From positions 1,178,001-1,242,000 of the forward strand of contig NZ_AP019827.1 of the NCBI RefSeq assembly GCF_008327825.1: a stretch of 64,000 bases of DNA, in the 5' to 3' direction. Below are positions 52,590-61,193 of this stretch, piece by piece (the first letter of the stretch is position 1; every line of letters begins with the position of its first letter). Below the pieces are notes generated by a model, which was not told the origin of the DNA, searched no databases, and was given only the letters and a program-made list of their open reading frames with translations. The position numbers and the translations under genes are program-made. The stretch is from Leptotrichia shahii (GTDB lineage Bacteria > Fusobacteriota > Fusobacteriia > Fusobacteriales > Leptotrichiaceae).

Positions 52590-53363
52590 TTATTTAAAAA
52601 GTTCATTAATTTTCTGAATCAAATAATTTACATCATTTTTCTCTAAAAATTCAACAATACTCGTTCCTACAATCACTCCATCCGCATATTTTCTCATCGT
52701 ATTCACGTTATCGTTATTTTTTATTCCAAAACCTAATGAAACTGGCAAGTCTGAAACTTCTCTAATTTCATTAATAAAAGATTCTAAACGTGGTAAATCA
52801 ACTTGTTTTGAACCTGTAACTCCAAGAGAACCGATTGCGTAAATGAAGCCGTCACCTTGAGAGATAATTTTTTTCATTCTATTTCCAGAAGTAACGCTTA
52901 CAAGAGGGATAAGAGCAATATTGTTTTCTCTTAATTTTTCTGACATTTCAAAGGCTTCCTCATAAGGCAAATCTGGAATAATTATTCCTTTAATGTTAGC
53001 TTCACAGCATTTTTTGATAAATTCGTCAATTCCATAAGCAAATATTAAGTTATAATAAATTAAAAAAATTAAAGGTTTTGAAATATCGTTTTTTATTTCT
53101 GTTAGTAAATCAAATACAGTATCAGTAGTAACTCCAGCTTCCGAAGCAAGAAATGAAGCATGTGAAATCAATTTCCCATCGGCTAGAGGATCGGAATAGG
53201 GAATACCGACTTCTAGCATATCAAGAGCCGTATTATCTAAATTTTGTAAAAATTGTTTTGTAAAATCAACGCTTGGGTAACCTGCGACAATATAACCAAT
53301 GTTTACTTTTTCTTTCTCTCTAAAAATATCAATAATTTTCTTATCTAAATTTTTTTCATTCAT
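52590..53363 (-). CDS. trpA: Tryptophan synthase alpha chain
   Basis: The 257-aa TIM-barrel enzyme splits indole-3-glycerol phosphate and passes indole to TrpB. It has GYIVAGYPS near the start, the catalytic Glu in [16 protein letters not shown] (near residue 45), the Asp in [10 protein letters not shown] (near 125), and the phosphate loop [11 protein letters not shown]. The ATG at 53363 lies inside the trpB end (8-base overlap) with GGAGG upstream; an in-frame start five codons earlier is less likely. It is the last gene of the operon. Confidence 0.95.
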
Positions 53364-54603
53364 TTTCCAAACCTCCATTTAACTCATAAATTCCATTTTT
53401 TCCGCCAGTTTCCTTATCTTTTAACACGGAAAAAACAGTATGCATATCCTTATCTCCACGTCCAGACACATTTACAACGATAGTTTCTCTCTTATTTTTA
53501 GAAAGTACAGGACATAATTTTTCAAGATAGGCTAAAGCGTGGGAACTCTCAATTGCTGGAATAATACCTTCTTTTCTTGTAACAAGCATTAGAGCCTTCA
53601 TTGCCTCATCATCAGTAATTGGTGCGTAAGTTGCTCTTTTTGTATCAAATAAGTGTGAATGTTCAGGGCCTACTCCTGGATAGTCAAGTCCAGCAGAAAT
53701 TGAATGAACTGGACTTATTTGTCCATATTTATTTTGAAGAACATAAGTTTTCATTCCATGAATAATTCCAGGTTTTCCAAGTGTCAATGTGGCAGCGTGC
53801 ATATCTGTGTCAATTCCATATCCTCCAGCTTCGACGCCATAAAGTTTTGTTGAGCTATCTTCCAAAAATGCACTAAAAATACCGATAGCATTACTTCCAC
53901 CACCAACACAGGCAATAACATGATCAGCATGTTTTCCCAGTTCCTCCAGCTGTGCTTTTGCTTCATAACCAATAATTGACTGAAAATCACGCACGATAGT
54001 CGGATATGGATGAGGCCCTACAACTGAACCAATTACATAAAACACAGTTTCTATCTCTGCAACCCAAGACTGAATAGCGGCAGTTGTCGCTTCCTTCAAG
54101 GTTTTCAGCCCATCTTCAATAGAAATAACTCTCGCACCCAAAAGTTCCATTCTAAAAACATTTAATTTTTGCCGTTCAATGTCAACAGCCCCCATGTAAA
54201 CGTCACACTCCAAACCTAAAAGAGCGGCCGCAGTAGCAGTAGCAACTCCGTGCTGTCCAGCCCCAGTTTCAGCAATAACTTTTTTCTTTCCCATTTTTTT
54301 AGCAAGTAAAACTTGCCCAAGTGCATTATTAATTTTATGAGCGCCAGTATGGTTCAAGTCTTCTCTTTTCAAGTAAATATCGTGATTATAATGTTCACTC
54401 AAATTTTTTGCATAATAGAGCGGAGTTTCACGCCCAACATAATTTTTTAGCAAATTATCAAATTCTTTAAAAAATTCTTTGTCATTTTTTAGCTTTTCAT
54501 ATTCAGATTCTAGTTCTGACAGAGCAAACATCGCAGTTTCAGGTACAAATTGTCCACCAAATTGCCCAAAATATGCCTTTTCATTAAAATGTTTATTTTC
54601 CAT
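53356..54603 (-). CDS. trpB: Tryptophan synthase beta chain
   Basis: The 415-aa PLP enzyme joins indole and serine to give tryptophan. Marks are [15 protein letters not shown], the PLP Lys in [18 protein letters not shown] (near residue 90), [31 protein letters not shown] and [10 protein letters not shown]. Length is normal for TrpB1. GAAAGGA lies before the ATG. It overlaps trpA by 8 bases and follows trpF. Confidence 0.97.
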
Positions 54604-54640
54604 ATTTTTTTCCTTTCGTATTCATCTTTTAAAATTATTA

Positions 54641-55366
54641 TTATTTCTTTTTTACCAAATTTACAATATTTTCAACTAATTTTTTATTTTTTCTATTATT
54701 AACTTCAACTTTGCTGTTTATATCCAAAATTGCAGGCTTGTACTCAAGTGCTTTCTGAATATTCTCAATTGACAGCCCTCCAGCCAGCACAAACGAATAT
54801 TCCTCTAATTCTTTTAAAATATTCCAATCAAAGACAATTCCATTTCCCCCACGATTTTCTCCTTTTGCATCAAATAGAGGATATTCAATATACGGCTTAT
54901 AGTCAGTAATATTCGGAAGTTCATCGGTTACTCCAAAAACCTTCCAAAGTTTTGTTTTAACAGGAAAATTTTTACGTTTTCTAAAACAATTTTTTTCATA
55001 CAATTTTTCTAATTTTTGAATAAGTTCCATGCAATATTCCACTGACTCATCTCCATGTAGCTGTACGACATCAATATCTGTTTCTTTCACAATTTTTATA
55101 ACATTCTCAATCATCGCATTTACAAATACCCCAACTGTCTTTTTCCCATGTCTATGTGCAGTCCGAGTAATTTTAGCAGCAAGTTCGCTATCCACTTGCC
55201 TTTGACTTTCTGCGAAAATACATCCGAAATAGTCAATATCCAAAGTTTTCAATTCATTAATTTCAGTAATGCTTCTAATTCCACAAACTTTTAATTTGGT
55301 AGTATTTTCTGTGAAATTATCAGTTGCCACATTATTTTCTTTTTTCTCCAATTTTTTTCCTTCCAT
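54641..55366 (-). CDS. trpF: Phosphoribosylanthranilate isomerase
   Basis: The 241-aa protein has TrpF motifs: catalytic Cys in LKVCGIRSITEI (near residue 28), QLHGDES, and the C-terminal FVLAGGLSIENIQKAL and LDINSKVEV, where the Ser-Gly usual in DVSSGVE is changed to Asn-Ser. Before the barrel lies a polar N-terminal extension of about 23 residues, and a basic insert (KNCFRKRKNFPVKTK) lengthens one loop. GGAAAAAAATTGG-type sequence precedes the ATG; a later start cannot be excluded. It sits between trpC and trpB. Confidence 0.88.
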   Translation of the reverse strand: MEGKKLEKKENNVATDNFTENTTKLKVCGIRSITEINELKTLDIDYFGCIFAESQRQVDSELAAKITRTAHRHGKKTVGVFVNAMIENVIKIVKETDIDVVQLHGDESVEYCMELIQKLEKLYEKNCFRKRKNFPVKTKLWKVFGVTDELPNITDYKPYIEYPLFDAKGENRGGNGIVFDWNILKELEEYSFVLAGGLSIENIQKALEYKPAILDINSKVEVNNRKNKKLVENIVNLVKKK

Positions 55367-55382
55367 AAATTTATTTTTCTTT

Positions 55383-56108
55383 CTAAAGAAGTCCCTTCAT
55401 AAGTGCCTCCCCAATTAGCAGTCCATCCACGTTCAATTTTTCTGCATACTCCACATCCTCTTTTGACAAAAATCCACTTTCACTTACAATAGTCAAATTT
55501 TTTAAAACATCGCTTGGAATTTCATTTATCAGTTTTTCCGTAGTTCTAATATCAACTTCAAAAGTATTCAAATTTCGGTTATTTATCCCCAAAATTTCCA
55601 AATTTGGAATCTTCAAAGCTCTTCTTATTTCCTCTTCATCATGAGTTTCTACTAAAACATCCATTTCTAAATCCTGTGCCAGCTTATGAAGTTCCAAAAG
55701 CGTCTTATCATCCAGCATTCTCACAATCAATAAAATCGCTGAAGCCCCCAAAAACTTAGCATGAGCCACCTGAAACGGAGTATAAATAAAATCTTTCCTC
55801 AAAATCGGCATTTCTGGAAATTTTTGTCTTACAATTTTTATAAAATCATTCTCCCCTTTAAAATATTCCTTTTCTGTCAATATCGAAAAAGCTGAAACTC
55901 CTTTATCCACATAACTTTGTGCCTGTTTTAACAAATCAAAATCATCTTTTGCAATTTTTCCCTTCGATGGAGAAGCCCTCTTAATTTCCCCAATAATCTG
56001 AATTCCCTTTTGATTAAGTGCCTTTTTTAAAGATGGCTGTTTAAAAGACTTTAATTCGTCTTCAAGCTGTATATCTCTTTTAATTTTTATTTTTTCTAAA
56101 ATATCCAT
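55383..56108 (-). CDS. trpC: Indole-3-glycerol phosphate synthase
   Basis: The 241-aa barrel enzyme shows QIIGEIKRASPSKGKI with the catalytic Lys, ILTEKEYFKG, PILRKDFI, LGINNRNLNTFEVD and SESGFLSKEDV, all typical of IGPS. The frame extends 12 codons upstream, but AAAGGAG is placed for the ATG at 56108. It lies 17 bases before trpF and just after a small membrane-protein gene. Confidence 0.95.
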   Translation of the reverse strand: MDILEKIKIKRDIQLEDELKSFKQPSLKKALNQKGIQIIGEIKRASPSKGKIAKDDFDLLKQAQSYVDKGVSAFSILTEKEYFKGENDFIKIVRQKFPEMPILRKDFIYTPFQVAHAKFLGASAILLIVRMLDDKTLLELHKLAQDLEMDVLVETHDEEEIRRALKIPNLEILGINNRNLNTFEVDIRTTEKLINEIPSDVLKNLTIVSESGFLSKEDVEYAEKLNVDGLLIGEALMKGLL

Positions 56109-56124
56109 ATTTCTCCTTTCGATT

Positions 56125-56487
56125 TTAAATGTATGGTAATGCATTCAAAACATCATTTATCATTAAGCCAGCATAAATACTGAATATTGTTATATTTACT
56201 AGAAAAATTACTAATTTGAATCTATTTTTTGATTTTTTCTTTTTTTCTTCATCTTCAATTTTATTTATTTTTTTCAATTTCATTGAACTTAAATACATTA
56301 GTATTATTTTAAGAAAAAGATAAATTAGAGGAATATTTTGAAAAATATTACCAAATAAATTATTTAAAAGATAGATTAATAATACAGTAAACCCAAATGG
56401 AATAAAACAGATAAATATAGCTAACAATACTATTTCAGGTACTATAAAATATCTTAAACAATGTTCCCTATATAAAGTTTTTATCAT
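56125..56487 (-). CDS. Small membrane protein within the trp operon
   Basis: The 120-aa protein has about three hydrophobic segments (residues 14-41, 50-67 and 93-111) and a Lys/Glu-rich cytoplasmic loop (about 70-90). It resembles small DUF-type membrane proteins of Fusobacteria, but I do not recognise a family. The binding site GGAAAG is a little far from the ATG. It lies between the AAA ATPase gene and trpC, is on the same strand, and has no known link with tryptophan synthesis. Confidence 0.6.
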   Translation of the reverse strand: MIKTLYREHCLRYFIVPEIVLLAIFICFIPFGFTVLLIYLLNNLFGNIFQNIPLIYLFLKIILMYLSSMKLKKINKIEDEEKKKKSKNRFKLVIFLVNITIFSIYAGLMINDVLNALPYI

Positions 56488-56538: not shown

Positions 56539-57750
56539 TTAGTCTTTCAATAAAAAATCAATAATATTCAAATGTTTTATCCCGTTTCTTGACATATCAA
56601 ACCTGTCCATAGAAATTACATATTTGGGATAATTATCATTAATTTTTTCAAATGGTAAAAATTCCCTTTTTATAGTGTCTTCAGAGGCAAGTAAATATGC
56701 TACCTGGATATAAATTTTTTCATTATTTGTTTTTGTACAGACAAAATCTATTTCTAAATTATTCAATTTTCCGATTTTTATGTTATAGCCTTTTCGCAAT
56801 AATTCCATATAGACAATATTTTCAAGAATTTGATTTATATCTCTTTCGTTTGTTTCCAAAATAGCTTCTCTTATTCCATGGTCTGCAATATAATATTTTT
56901 CACTCACATTTAGAACTTCTTTACCTTGTATTTCGTAACGAGGGACTTTGTGAATCAAAAATGCGTTTTCACAGGCTTTTATGTAATTTAGCACAGTATC
57001 TACTGCAACTTTTCTATTTTCGCTTTTAAAATATTTTGAAATTGAATTTGCAGAAAATGTATTCCCAATGTTCATTACAATGTAATTGATGATTCGCTCT
57101 AATAATTCAGTATTTCTTATATTATTTCTTTGAGTAATATCTTTTAATATTATTGATGAATATATATCTTTTAAATATTGCATGCTTGATTCCACTTCAT
57201 AATTCAAATTATGTAAAAATGGCATCCCACCTAGTTTGACATACTTTTCAAATATTTCTTCTTTTGAAATATTTTGATTTATATTTTGGTATATTGAATA
57301 AAACTCTTTGAAAGAAAAAGGGTAAATTTCAACTTCAACGTATCTTCCTGCAAGGTAAGTTGCAAGTTCTCCCGATAATAGTTTAGCGTTGGAACCTGTT
57401 ATATAAATATCGAATTGCTTATCTTCTGTTCTTAATGAATTTATGCACTTTTCCCATTCTTTTACTTCCTGAATTTCATCCAAAAACAAATAGCATTTTT
57501 CTTGAATATTCTCTGCTTTTTCCAATATATATTCATTTAATGTATCCGCATAGCAAAGATGTCTATTTCTTAAATTTTCAAAATTGATATAAATAAATTG
57601 ATTTTCATCAACACCGTTTTTTTTCAATTCTTTCATAATCAATTTTAACATTACAGATTTGCCGCTTCTCCTAATTCCTGTCAAAACTTTGATAATATCT
57701 TTATCTATAAAGGGCTTAATTTTTTCAAAATAAATTTTTCTTTCTATCAT
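56539..57750 (-). CDS. AAA_14/DUF4143-type ATP-binding protein
   Basis: The 403-aa protein has a Walker A motif at VLTGIRRSGKSVMLKLI (near residue 25), Walker B CYLFLDEIQEVKEWEKCI (near 90), the sensor ITGSNAKLLSGELATYLAGRYVEVEIYPFSFKEF, and a C-terminal DUF4143 domain with GKLNNLEIDFVCTKTNNEKIYIQVAY that looks like a PD-(D/E)xK-type fold. These common mobile ATPases have no defined role. AGAGGTGAT precedes the ATG, so it is independently translated. It splits the trp operon between trpGD and trpC. Confidence 0.85.
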   Translation of the reverse strand: MIERKIYFEKIKPFIDKDIIKVLTGIRRSGKSVMLKLIMKELKKNGVDENQFIYINFENLRNRHLCYADTLNEYILEKAENIQEKCYLFLDEIQEVKEWEKCINSLRTEDKQFDIYITGSNAKLLSGELATYLAGRYVEVEIYPFSFKEFYSIYQNINQNISKEEIFEKYVKLGGMPFLHNLNYEVESSMQYLKDIYSSIILKDITQRNNIRNTELLERIINYIVMNIGNTFSANSISKYFKSENRKVAVDTVLNYIKACENAFLIHKVPRYEIQGKEVLNVSEKYYIADHGIREAILETNERDINQILENIVYMELLRKGYNIKIGKLNNLEIDFVCTKTNNEKIYIQVAYLLASEDTIKREFLPFEKINDNYPKYVISMDRFDMSRNGIKHLNIIDFLLKD

Positions 57751-57873: not shown

Positions 57874-59520
57874 TTATTTTGTAATTTTCACATAATCTTT
57901 ATAAAACTCATAAACCTTCCCACTCTCAATCGCCTCGAAAACCATATCCTTTGCTTTCGCAGGATGATCTACTACATTCGCAGTATAAAGTGCAAACATT
58001 GCATTCAATACAACAATATCAAATTTTGCCGATTTTTCTCCACCTTTCAAGATTTTTACCAAAATTTCAGCATTTTCCTCTGGAGTTCCGCCTTCAATTT
58101 CAGAATGAAAAGCCCGTTTAAAGCCAAAACTTTCAGGCGAGATTGTATATTCCAGAATTTGTTCGCCCTTTACTTCGATAATTCTTGTATCATCGCAAAT
58201 CGTGATTTCATCAAGCCCGTCATTTCCTCGAACAACTAATGCGTGTTTTCTTCCTAGTAATTGTAATGTTTCGGCGTACAATCTGTGTACTGGCTCATGG
58301 TAAAGCCCAACCAATTGGTATTTTAATTTTGTGTTTGGGTGAAGCAGTGGACCTAAAATGTTAAAGACAGTTCTTATTCCAAGACGGCTTCTAACTTCTC
58401 GGACTTCTCCGACTAATTTGTGAAAAAATGGGGCATGAAAGAAAGCAAGATTTTTTACGTGCAGTTTTTCAATTTGATTTGCAAGAGAATTTTCAAGAGG
58501 TACTCCTAGTTTATCAAGTACATCACTGCTTCCACTTTTACTCGAAATTGCACGGTTTCCGTGTTTTGCCACATTTACTCCCATTGCTCCCAAAATAAAT
58601 GCCACAGCGGTTGAAATATTTATTGTCTTGAATCCATCGCCACCAGTTCCGCAAACATCAATCATTGGAGTTTCGTCCTCAAAAGTCGTGCTGTATTCTA
58701 GAATATTTTTTACAAATGCTGTAAGCGATTCAGGATAAAGACTTTTTTCTGAAATTAGTACAAGCAAGGCTCCAAGCTGTACAATGTCATAATTTTTGCT
58801 GTCAATAATTTTACAGATTTCACGAAAATCAGTATCTGTTAATGCAATATTTTCCTGTAATTTTTTTAAATATTTATTCATATCTATAAAGTTTCCTTTC
58901 TCTTTAGTATTTTTAGAATTTTCATTATTTTGCAAAGTTTCTGAAACTTCAATATTCAAGAAGTTTCGTATCATATTTTTTCCATATTCAGTAAAAATTG
59001 ATTCTGGATGAAACTGTATTCCAAAAATATTTTTACTTTTGTGTTCTACAGCCATTGCAACCCCATCTTCAGACTTTGCAGTAACTTCAAGAGTTTCTGG
59101 AATATCGTCAACATAAAGTGAATGATACCTCATAACTTTAAATTTTTTTGGCAAGTTTTTAAATAATACAGAATTTCCCGATAAAACTGTAATCTCTGAA
59201 GTTTTACCATGCAATGGATTTTCAAGCCTCTTTATTTCTCCACCAAAATTCATTCCAATTGCCTGATGTCCAAGACAAATTCCTAAAATTGGAATATTGC
59301 CCAGTTCATCAGTATTATTTAAAATTTCTAGGCAAATTCCACTGTCTTTCGGATGTTTTGGACCGGGAGAAAAAATTATTTTACTAGGATTCATTTTTTT
59401 TATATCATCAATTGTAATTGCGTCATTTCTCACGGTAATAACTTCATCATCAGTCATTTCCTTCAAATACTGCTCAACATTAAATACAAACGAATCATAA
59501 TTGTCAATCATCAAAATCAT
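57874..59520 (-). CDS. trpGD: Fused anthranilate synthase glutaminase and anthranilate phosphoribosyltransferase
   Basis: Residues 1 to about 195 are the TrpG glutamine amidotransferase with Cys82 in ILGICLGHQ and the His-Glu pair in GIQFHPESI. A polar linker (SETLQNNENSKNTKEKGNF) joins it to TrpD, from about residue 214, with DVCGTGGDGFKT, AKHGNRAISSKSGSSD and RSRLGIRTVFNILGPL. It makes ammonia for TrpE and moves phosphoribosyl onto anthranilate. The ATG follows the trpE stop directly, with AGAAAGGA inside trpE. The fusion resembles that of enterobacteria. Confidence 0.95.
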   Translation of the reverse strand: MILMIDNYDSFVFNVEQYLKEMTDDEVITVRNDAITIDDIKKMNPSKIIFSPGPKHPKDSGICLEILNNTDELGNIPILGICLGHQAIGMNFGGEIKRLENPLHGKTSEITVLSGNSVLFKNLPKKFKVMRYHSLYVDDIPETLEVTAKSEDGVAMAVEHKSKNIFGIQFHPESIFTEYGKNMIRNFLNIEVSETLQNNENSKNTKEKGNFIDMNKYLKKLQENIALTDTDFREICKIIDSKNYDIVQLGALLVLISEKSLYPESLTAFVKNILEYSTTFEDETPMIDVCGTGGDGFKTINISTAVAFILGAMGVNVAKHGNRAISSKSGSSDVLDKLGVPLENSLANQIEKLHVKNLAFFHAPFFHKLVGEVREVRSRLGIRTVFNILGPLLHPNTKLKYQLVGLYHEPVHRLYAETLQLLGRKHALVVRGNDGLDEITICDDTRIIEVKGEQILEYTISPESFGFKRAFHSEIEGGTPEENAEILVKILKGGEKSAKFDIVVLNAMFALYTANVVDHPAKAKDMVFEAIESGKVYEFYKDYVKITK

Positions 59521-60855
59521 TTATTTCACATCCTTTCTATTTTCATTTTTATCATTTTTATTTTTTTCTTCATTACAGAATTTTTTAAAAATATTCAGCA
59601 CAGACGCTCTTTTATGGCAAATTTCTTCATATTCCTTTTCTTTCACAGAATCAAACACAATTCCTGCCCCAGCCTGAATAAATATATTCCGAACCTCATC
59701 AACTTCATTTAAGTCGGAATTTTTATTTTCAAAAAATGCAGTACGAATAATAATCGCAAGCTGAACATCCCCATTAAATCTCAAAAATCCAATTCCGCCA
59801 GCATAAACATTTCTTTTAAATTTCTCCAGTTCTGAAATAATTTGCATAGCACGAATTTTTGGCGATCCAGAAAGAGTTCCCGCTGGAAGAGCCTGAGCAA
59901 TAACTTCAAATATCGACACATCCTTTCGCTTTTTCCCGTAAACATCAGTTACAATGTGCATTACATGTTCATAATTCTTAATATGCATAAGATTTTTTAC
60001 AACAACTGAGCCACTTTCTGCAAATTTCCCAATATCATTTCTAGCCAAGTCAACAAGCATTCGATGTTCAGCACATTCCTTTTCATCATTTAATAAGTCA
60101 TTCGCTAAAAATGCGTCTTCGTTGGCATCTTTTCCTCTGGGACGAGTTCCAGCGATAGGAGCAATATAGATATTATCCGATGAAATATCAACCAGTATTT
60201 CAGGGCTAGACCCAACTATATCTCCATATTTTGTAGGAAAATGGTACATATACGGACTAGGATTTGCCTTTGACAATTTTTCATAAAAATCAAGTGAATC
60301 CATATTTGACGTAAGTTTTAACTGCTCACTTAGCACAACCTGAAAAATATCTCCAGCTTTAATATATTCCTTCGCTTTTTCAAGAATAGCATAAAAATGT
60401 GATTTTTCCTCATCAAAATCTGTTTTTATATCATAAAATAACCCATTATTTTCAGTTTTTTTCTTAATTTCATCCTTCAAAAGATCAAAATATTTCTTTT
60501 CATTCCCATAAAACGAATATTCCTTATTAATCTTTGAATAATGTAAATAAGCCTTCGCATTGGCAAAAATAAACTGTGGAAATTTAAACTGCTCCTCTTT
60601 TATCTTCTCAATCTTCTCAAAAAAATGTATAGACTCGTAAGCAAATGTTCCAAAAAGTCCAGCAAATGGAGCAATCTTTTTTTGCTTTACAAAAGAATTG
60701 TAAATTTTTTTCAAGGAATCATAGCTATATTTATTAGAATCAAAATATTCACAGTCAATCCCAATAATAACTTGCCTTTCATCTTCAGCAAAATAGGAAT
60801 TGCTAAATTTTTTTCTAATAATGGAATAATAATAAGTAGGCTTGTTTATTAACAT
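59521..60855 (-). CDS. trpE: Anthranilate synthase component I
   Basis: The 444-aa protein has the chorismate-binding domain: EYIKAGDIFQVVLSEQ, IAGTRPRGKD, LLNDEKECAEHRMLVDLARNDIGK, HIVTDVYG, LPAGTLSGSPKIRAMQIISELE and GAGIVFDSVKEKEYEE. The N-terminal regulatory region is shorter than usual (about 120 residues before the core), so the LLESx feedback motif is not evident; sensitivity to tryptophan cannot be judged. PabB is the alternative, but the linked trpGD makes TrpE far more likely. It is the first enzyme gene after the attenuator. Confidence 0.93.
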   Translation of the reverse strand: MLINKPTYYYSIIRKKFSNSYFAEDERQVIIGIDCEYFDSNKYSYDSLKKIYNSFVKQKKIAPFAGLFGTFAYESIHFFEKIEKIKEEQFKFPQFIFANAKAYLHYSKINKEYSFYGNEKKYFDLLKDEIKKKTENNGLFYDIKTDFDEEKSHFYAILEKAKEYIKAGDIFQVVLSEQLKLTSNMDSLDFYEKLSKANPSPYMYHFPTKYGDIVGSSPEILVDISSDNIYIAPIAGTRPRGKDANEDAFLANDLLNDEKECAEHRMLVDLARNDIGKFAESGSVVVKNLMHIKNYEHVMHIVTDVYGKKRKDVSIFEVIAQALPAGTLSGSPKIRAMQIISELEKFKRNVYAGGIGFLRFNGDVQLAIIIRTAFFENKNSDLNEVDEVRNIFIQAGAGIVFDSVKEKEYEEICHKRASVLNIFKKFCNEEKNKNDKNENRKDVK

Positions 60856-60980
60856 AAAGTATCTCGCTTTCTATATTTTATATTTTTTCTAATTTTTTCT
60901 TTTTAATATTTCCTTTTTTGCTGAAATTTATAAAAAAATTCCCTTAAATCGTTTTACCGTCTAAGAGAATTGTATAAAAT

Positions 60981-61013
60981 AAAAGCATTGATCCTTACTT
61001 CACCAATGCTTTT
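60981..61013 (-). terminator. trp attenuator terminator
   Basis: On the minus strand AAAAGCATTG (61013-61004) pairs with CAATGCTTTT (60990-60981), followed by ATTTTAT. An outer pair, AGAGAA and TTCTCT near 61016 and 60966, may extend it. It lies between the leader peptide and trpE. Confidence 0.7.
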
Positions 61014-61069
61014 CTCTAATATTTATAATCGTAATTACAATAAATTTCAACATAGCTGGCAAAAAAATA

Positions 61070-61117
61070 TTAAATTGTATTTAATTTTTTCCACCATGTC
61101 CAAGTTTGTCTAATCAT
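61070..61117 (-). CDS. trpL: trp leader peptide with three Trp codons
   Basis: The 15-residue frame reads MIRQTWTWWKKLNTI and carries Trp at positions 6, 8 and 9. GAGGAGTGA stands before its ATG. It lies about 45 bases after a promoter and before an intrinsic terminator, the arrangement of a tryptophan-starvation attenuator. CATGGTGG in the Trp-codon stretch can pair with CCAGCTATG further on, a possible 1:2 hairpin. A clear antiterminator pairing was not found by eye. Confidence 0.8.
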   Translation of the reverse strand: MIRQTWTWWKKLNTI

Positions 61118-61164
61118 TGTAATCACTCCTCAAAATCTTTTATCTATTATTTTAATTTACAAAT

Positions 61165-61193
61165 ACTATATCACAAAAAATATATTTTGTAAA
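61165..61193 (-). promoter_or_regulatory. trp operon promoter
   Basis: Minus-strand TTTACA (61188-61193) and TATAGT (61165-61170) have a 17-base spacer and lead into the trp leader peptide. Confidence 0.6.

Follow-up and report, generated by a model that had tools for sequence, protein, structure and literature searches.

A predicted ribosome-mediated attenuator with two terminators in series ahead of the trp operon of Leptotrichia shahii

Background

Leader-peptide systems were at one time known in Proteobacteria and Actinobacteria only, and Firmicutes were then added, according to the available excerpt of a 2010 survey (PMC2965389). The closest described relative of the locus analyzed here is E. 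coli trpL (RF00513), with which it shares a short ORF whose adjacent Trp codons end just before the antiterminator strand, as well as an intrinsic terminator before trpE and competing pairings. Outside the proteobacteria, the excerpt of PMC1262725 describes trp attenuators of Corynebacterium and Streptomyces that likewise combine a leader ORF containing a double or triple UGG with a terminator and an antiterminator. More than one attenuation element per leader is also on record: the excerpt of PMC3641672 describes tandem attenuators in Salmonella mgtCBR, and that of PMC2965389 describes tandem terminators plus a potential antiterminator in the rimP leader of some Gammaproteobacteria. Control of trp genes by a T-box or TRAP is also transcription attenuation by tryptophan status, although the sensor there is a tRNA or a protein, whereas in the fusobacterial trp leader it would be the ribosome.

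The leader and the operon behind it

The window (the whole stretch of 64,000 nt that was analyzed) contains a trp leader and operon on its minus strand. In order of transcription, the features are as follows (coordinates are positions in the window).

61165–61193, minus strand: promoter, with -35 TTTACA (61193–61188), -10 TATAGT (61170–61165), a spacer of 17 nt, and an upstream TG
61070–61117, minus strand: trpL leader ORF, MIRQTWTWWKKLNTI, 15 residues, ATG at 61117, stop codon included, with a GAGGAG Shine-Dalgarno sequence
61115–61126, minus strand: strand 0, GTGATTACAATG, around the start codon and directly downstream of the Shine-Dalgarno sequence; 13-bp helix with strand 2'
61085–61102, minus strand: region 1, the Trp codons TGGACATGGTGGAAAAAA, partner of region 2 in folds with the ribosome absent
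61044–61067, minus strand: region 2, the predicted antiterminator strand TTTTTTTGCCAGCTATGTTGAAAT, from folds and from duplex and permutation tests
61031–61043, minus strand: strand 2', TTATTGTAATTAC, which is predicted to close the leader ribosome-binding site; variable columns 0 of 13
60981–61013, minus strand: T1 terminator hairpin, tail ATTTTATAC extending to 60972; loop segment GGTGAA is the partner of region 2
60932–60971, minus strand: T2 terminator hairpin with U tract; loop segment GGTAAAA able to pair with region 2
60920–60931, minus strand: post-T2 segment ATAAATTTCAGC, complementary over 12 bp to GTTGAAATTTAT of regions 2 and 2', a pairing supported in the genus Leptotrichia only
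59521–60855, minus strand: trpE, anthranilate synthase component I (Pfam PF00425)
57874–59520, minus strand: trpGD fusion (Pfam GATase and Glycos_transf_3)
52590–56144, minus strand: trpC, trpF, trpB, and trpA (Pfam)

The operon behind the leader is complete, with the gene order trpE, trpGD, AAA/DUF4143 gene, small ORF, trpC, trpF, trpB, trpA. Its TrpE is 91%–92% identical to those of L. hongkongensis JMUB5056 and Leptotrichia sp. oral taxon 879. The two genes that lie between trpGD and trpC encode an AAA_14/DUF4143 ATPase (56539–57750, minus strand) and a small hydrophobic product without a Pfam family (56125–56487).

A first-pass annotation of this DNA had proposed leader-peptide attenuation on the basis of a promoter, a Trp-rich peptide of 15 residues, and a terminator ahead of trpE. 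The promoter is where it had been placed. Promoter-like sequences are no more frequent in the region than in shuffles when simply counted (10 vs. 8.0, sd 2.9); the one at 61193–61165 is kept in all 10 close relatives, with no variable column in the -35 element and three of nine in the -10 region. The peptide was also read correctly. With three Trp within 15 codons and a Shine-Dalgarno sequence ahead, trpL is predicted to be translated, and an ORF of this kind (Shine-Dalgarno sequence plus ATG, 7–35 codons, at least three Trp) arose in only one of 5000 dinucleotide shuffles. The fold of the leader as far as T1 beats 200 of 200 shuffles (z −5.5).

Spread of the leader in Fusobacteriota

If the peptide is a sensor, its Trp codons should be kept in relatives, a test that the first-pass annotation had itself proposed. 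TrpE-type matches (better than about E 1e-70, plus one partial match, in G093) were sought in 98 Fusobacteriota genomes and the regions upstream of them were inspected; weaker, PabB-like matches were left uncounted, although part of their upstream regions was inspected too. Trp-rich leader ORFs (WxWW, WWW, or SWW) precede trpE, or trpB, in 33 genomes. Within Leptotrichia, the leader stands before trpE in 12 of the 12 genomes with a TrpE match, and in 13 of 13 when the trpB case (G010, below) is included. Outside the genus, among genomes that have a TrpE-type match, six of seven other Leptotrichiaceae and 14 of 16 Fusobacteriaceae carry it. The Shine-Dalgarno sequence and start of the ORF are conserved phylum-wide, as are the Trp codons. 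No leader was found upstream of trpE in G013, G033, G034, or G054, the last of which offers just 483 nt upstream of the match; G033 and G034 are the single genomes representing two further families.

Several of these genomes have departed from the usual arrangement. In one member of the Fusobacteriaceae (G076), a T-box (L116 992–1263, 95.5 bits) occupies the position before trpE where relatives have the leader peptide, an apparent swap of sensor as judged from sequence. The Leptotrichia genome G010 has no TrpE match and carries the leader directly before trpB (L145 479–1965), with no trpA after trpB in the 4.4 kb fetched. The attenuator thus seems to have been kept on an apparently lone trpB, possibly for indole salvage. 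The leader of G005 and G007 is separated from trpE by some 0.9 kb of DNA, most of it noncoding (L143 650–1530, and L144). In G012 (L030/L016), trpE is split, with stop codons in its first half, and the leader is intact.

A search for further copies of the leader in the genus returned only trp-linked sites, apart from three short fragments, rich in AT, that lie in non-trp contexts. Among 79 named loci scanned, L035 alone has a Trp leader; other W-rich ORFs in this set were dropped because the pattern is absent. In Bacteroidota, TrpE of Capnocytophaga (L032, L033) is 63%–65% identical to that of L. shahii, far above other non-fusobacterial matches. This probably reflects transfer between oral bacteria; no Trp-rich ORF lies upstream of the Capnocytophaga gene.

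The sensors that might replace a leader peptide were searched for as well. No T-box (RF00230) was found in L. shahii or in any of the 13 Leptotrichia genomes, and the control T-box genomes were detected. TRAP (PF02081) has no match in the L. shahii genome, and the B. subtilis control was detected. No TrpR scored above the cut-off in 33 family genomes, that of L. shahii included; the matches below the cut-off are short stretches of reading frames of 135–337 amino acids and were not taken as TrpR.

Two terminators in series

The terminator that the first-pass annotation had placed ahead of trpE is T1 (61013–60981). That annotation missed a second one, T2 (60971–60932), so the single-terminator picture was incomplete rather than wrong. 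Both are intrinsic terminators between the leader ORF and the first gene. The quality of T1 is reached by none of 60 shuffles in L. shahii. It should be noted that a strict scan (loop of at most 8, at least three G–C pairs) reports no terminator here, the T1 loop being at least 9. T2 follows directly after the T1 tail, with −12.5 kcal/mol and a strong U tract.

Two terminators in series are present in 29 of the 33 leaders. A scan for hairpins with U tracts found the tandem pair in 18 of 19 Leptotrichiaceae leaders, where T2 starts 7–12 nt past the end of T1. In the 19th, from G022, the scan missed T1, the U tract of which is degraded (TTTTCTCG), and this hairpin was entered by hand; its T2 is strong and must therefore be the working terminator there. 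In Fusobacteriaceae, two terminators are found in 10 of 14 leaders, and one in the four leaders of genera g23 and g25. Against 60 shuffles each, T1 scored above all in nine of 10 representatives (the exception is the tail-less T1 of G022), and so did T2 (the exception is L117, for which three of 60 shuffles reach it). The stem sequence of T2 varies among genera and the hairpin persists. Hairpins at nt 57–105 in L111 and L113 were dropped because they overlap the ORF and have a poor tail.

Antiterminator pairing at T1

The other test that had been proposed was for an alternative, antiterminator fold. The front edge of the ribosome was set 12 nt past the start of the A-site codon (the last Trp codon or the stop codon), and the remainder of the RNA was folded. 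When the ribosome stands on the last Trp codon, UUUGCCAG of region 2 pairs with UUGGUGAA of T1, and this pairing is found by unconstrained folding in 10 of 10 close relatives. With altered bases it recurs in clade B, where CGCCA or CACCA meets UGGUG, and in G022 and G019, where both sides have changed and CACCGG faces UCGGUG. It is missing from the minimum-energy fold in three g9 leaders and several Fusobacteriaceae. When the ribosome stands at the stop codon, region 2 lies beneath it.

The mean probability that the 5' half of a terminator is paired upstream follows ribosome position. In L. shahii, the values for T1 and T2 are 0.65 and 0.62 with the ribosome stalled, 0.42 and 0.45 with it at the stop codon, and 0.10 and 0.23 with it absent. 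Across the leaders, the stalled value is above the at-stop value at T1 in 28 of 33 and at T2 in 22 of 29. Part of this gap arises because less RNA is free when the ribosome has reached the stop codon, and a comparison with shuffled hairpin halves was therefore added. Over ten lineages, the resulting Fisher p values are 0.023 (T1) and 0.024 (T2) for the stalled state, and 0.86 and 0.64 at the stop codon. Based on folds, probabilities, and the permutation test (p 0.011), the predicted antiterminator of T1 is exclusive with the terminator and dependent on ribosome position. Within the T1 loop, GGTGAA has no variable column in six among the 10 close relatives, and the rest of the loop has five in eight.

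Single values must be read with care. In the duplex test, L001 gives p 0.43 for region 2 with T1 and 0.005 for region 2 with T2. The same procedure applied to E. coli trpL found its one terminator and gave p 0.40 for the proven antiterminator; a weak value for one leader here therefore does not mean that the pairing is absent. Also, the finished terminators are still more stable in the stalled state, by 5.7 kcal/mol (T1) and 7.8 kcal/mol (T2) in L. shahii, and the E. coli terminator is likewise favored, by 4.4 kcal/mol. Release would therefore be kinetic, here as in E. coli.

Covariation, and a helix over the leader ribosome-binding site

The pairing statistics draw on 10 of the 33 leaders (11 in the test with 20,000 permutations, which also covered the post-T2 segment) or, in the duplex test, on 17 of 33, chosen by hand with one or a few per genus; L017, L019, and L125 are in the 17 and outside the 10. 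The strongest signal comes from the helix between strand 0 and strand 2', which folding revealed and which the first-pass annotation had also lacked. In permutations of cognate against non-cognate partners, it was equaled in 0 of 5000 and 0 of 20,000 (Fisher 1.4e-5 and 2.6e-5). The helix shows strong covariation from genus to genus, and we infer that it closes the leader's own ribosome-binding site once the pioneer ribosome is past.

The other pairings yield smaller effects. Cross-lineage permutation over ten lineages gives p 0.011 for region 2 with T1, 0.015 for region 2 with T2, and 0.074 for the T1 3' arm with T2, and three pairings without an expected role give 0.52–0.98. Because eight pairings were tried, 0.011 and 0.015 are suggestive and not proof. 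The Trp-codon strand pairs with region 2 better than expected (Fisher p 0.0047) without covariation (p 0.57), as the codons are invariant. The duplex of the post-T2 segment with 61051–61040 is strong in Leptotrichia only (p 0.07 in L001, 0.002 in L008, and 0.006 in L010); for this segment with regions 2 and 2', ten lineages jointly give Fisher 0.086 and permutation 0.034. The conserved segment is transcribed too late to influence T2.

A proposed mechanism, and the release of T2

With its conserved Trp codons and predicted antiterminator, and with T-box, TRAP, and TrpR not found, the trp leader is very probably a ribosome-mediated transcription attenuator, as the first-pass annotation had suggested. 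The ORF, hairpins, conservation, and alternative pairings come from computation, and stalling, termination at both hairpins, and the response to tryptophan are inferred from them. RNA polymerase would transcribe the leader as a ribosome translates trpL. With charged tRNA-Trp plentiful, the ribosome would arrive at the stop codon and cover region 2, or else depart, in which case region 1 would pair with region 2 and strand 2' would shut the leader ribosome-binding site. Either way, T1 would form, followed by T2, and transcription would stop before trpE. With charged tRNA-Trp scarce, the ribosome would stall on the Trp codons, leaving region 2 free to pair with the 5' side of T1, which would then form too late. 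T2 would be a second checkpoint just downstream, likewise to be overcome, and its release is the weakest step of the scheme.

The best candidate for release of both terminators by one stalled ribosome, for which the statistics are modest, is a hand-over in which region 2 pairs first with the 5' side of T1 and then with the 5' half of T2, T1 re-forming within the loop that this second antiterminator encloses. This would be an elaboration of attenuation and not an alternative to it, and we would give it a little under an even chance. With the ribosome stalled and the RNA extending to the T2 loop, 26 of the 29 tandem leaders keep T1 folded and join the T2 5' half to RNA upstream of it by at least eight pairs, although 16 of 29 also reach at least eight such pairs when the ribosome is placed at the stop codon. 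The background in this AT-rich DNA is high: shuffled T2 halves average 4–14 pairs, and p values per leader range from 0.03 to 1.0. In L. shahii, the partner is region 2, with UUUUGCC, CUA, G, and GAA facing UUC, C, UAG, and GGUAAAA (p 0.005). The permutation p is 0.015 over 10 lineages and 0.045 within the six Leptotrichiaceae lineages, but the former is one of eight pairings and fails Bonferroni correction. GGTAAAA in the T2 loop has one variable column in seven among 10 relatives, and the flanking loop has five in seven; conservation of this segment and of GGTGAA amid variable loops fits both as partners of region 2. The G022 leader, with its T1 tail degraded yet T2 strong, is also as the hand-over would have it, whereas L115 and L120 fold differently.

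Alternatively, T2 could be an unregulated fail-safe that trims leakage by a fixed factor, T1 alone being controlled. Genera g23 and g25 (four leaders) do cope with one terminator, and T2 stays the more stable fold at equilibrium. However, a terminator that always acts, at about −9 to −18 kcal/mol, would block transcription in starvation also, and the conserved T2 loop segment and the poor T1 tail of G022 likewise speak against this reading; overall, it seems unlikely, if worth keeping in mind. It is harder still to credit a relay, in which the 3' arm of T1, freed when region 2 holds the 5' arm, pairs with the 5' arm of T2. Two lineages score strongly for the relay (p 0.004 in L115 and 0.002 in L122), and it is the minimum-energy fold of L115 and L120, but it is missing in Leptotrichiaceae (Fisher 0.54; p 0.86 in L. 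shahii), and T1 and T2 in L115 and L122 resemble copies of one hairpin, which would cross-pair without selection. Finally, the W-rich ORF might be neither translated nor regulatory, and the two hairpins might simply terminate a short transcript, perhaps a leader RNA that acts in trans (a trans role of a trp leader peptide is reported for Sinorhizobium in the excerpt of PMC7298713). This is scarcely credible given the phylum-wide conservation of Shine-Dalgarno sequence, start, and Trp codons, and given that the ORF is linked to trpE and, where that gene has been lost, to trpB.

Returning to the hand-over, an overall picture to which we give somewhat less than even odds is a two-checkpoint attenuator: one stalled ribosome would free one strand that disarms T1 and then T2, with T1 refolding within. 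If this is true, transcription would depend on a ribosome that remains stalled through both terminators, and the serial check, conserved across Fusobacteriota with sequence changes, would multiply dynamic range and filter out brief stalls.

Comparison with known systems

The fusobacterial leader lies outside RF00513 as modeled, though it would work in a similar way: at E up to 1, the Trp_leader model matched no leader in a set of seven from Fusobacteriota, and the E. coli control scored 93.1 bits. Rfam at gathering thresholds returned nothing in the whole window, and at E up to 10 only chance-level matches in the leader. In the open-access literature, we found no report of a trp leader in Fusobacteriota and no description of a trp leader that combines one ORF and two terminators; subscription papers were outside the scope, so an earlier mention of the former is possible. 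The leader probably adds a phylum to those with leader-peptide attenuators of trp genes.

Each of the described systems differs in some respect. In the excerpt of PMC1262725, the terminators of Corynebacterium and Streptomyces are GC-rich with conserved gGCC-rGCy-GGCC triples, unlike the fusobacterial ones, and the words “tandem” and “two terminators” have no occurrence in that text. The mgtCBR leader has two ORFs for two signals (excerpt of PMC3641672), whereas here one ORF precedes two serial terminators. The rimP leader belongs to a different gene, and the excerpt of PMC2965389 leaves an amino-acid leader peptide unmentioned. The resemblance to E. coli trpL extends to pairing of the leader Shine-Dalgarno region with a segment that immediately precedes the terminator (in E. 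coli AGGGUAUCG/AGAUACCC, p 0.037). Unlike E. coli trpL, with its one terminator, the Leptotrichia leader has two, and a single stalled ribosome would have to get polymerase past both. Natural comparisons are at hand in relatives that have one terminator, that use a T-box, or in which the leader stands ahead of a lone trpB.
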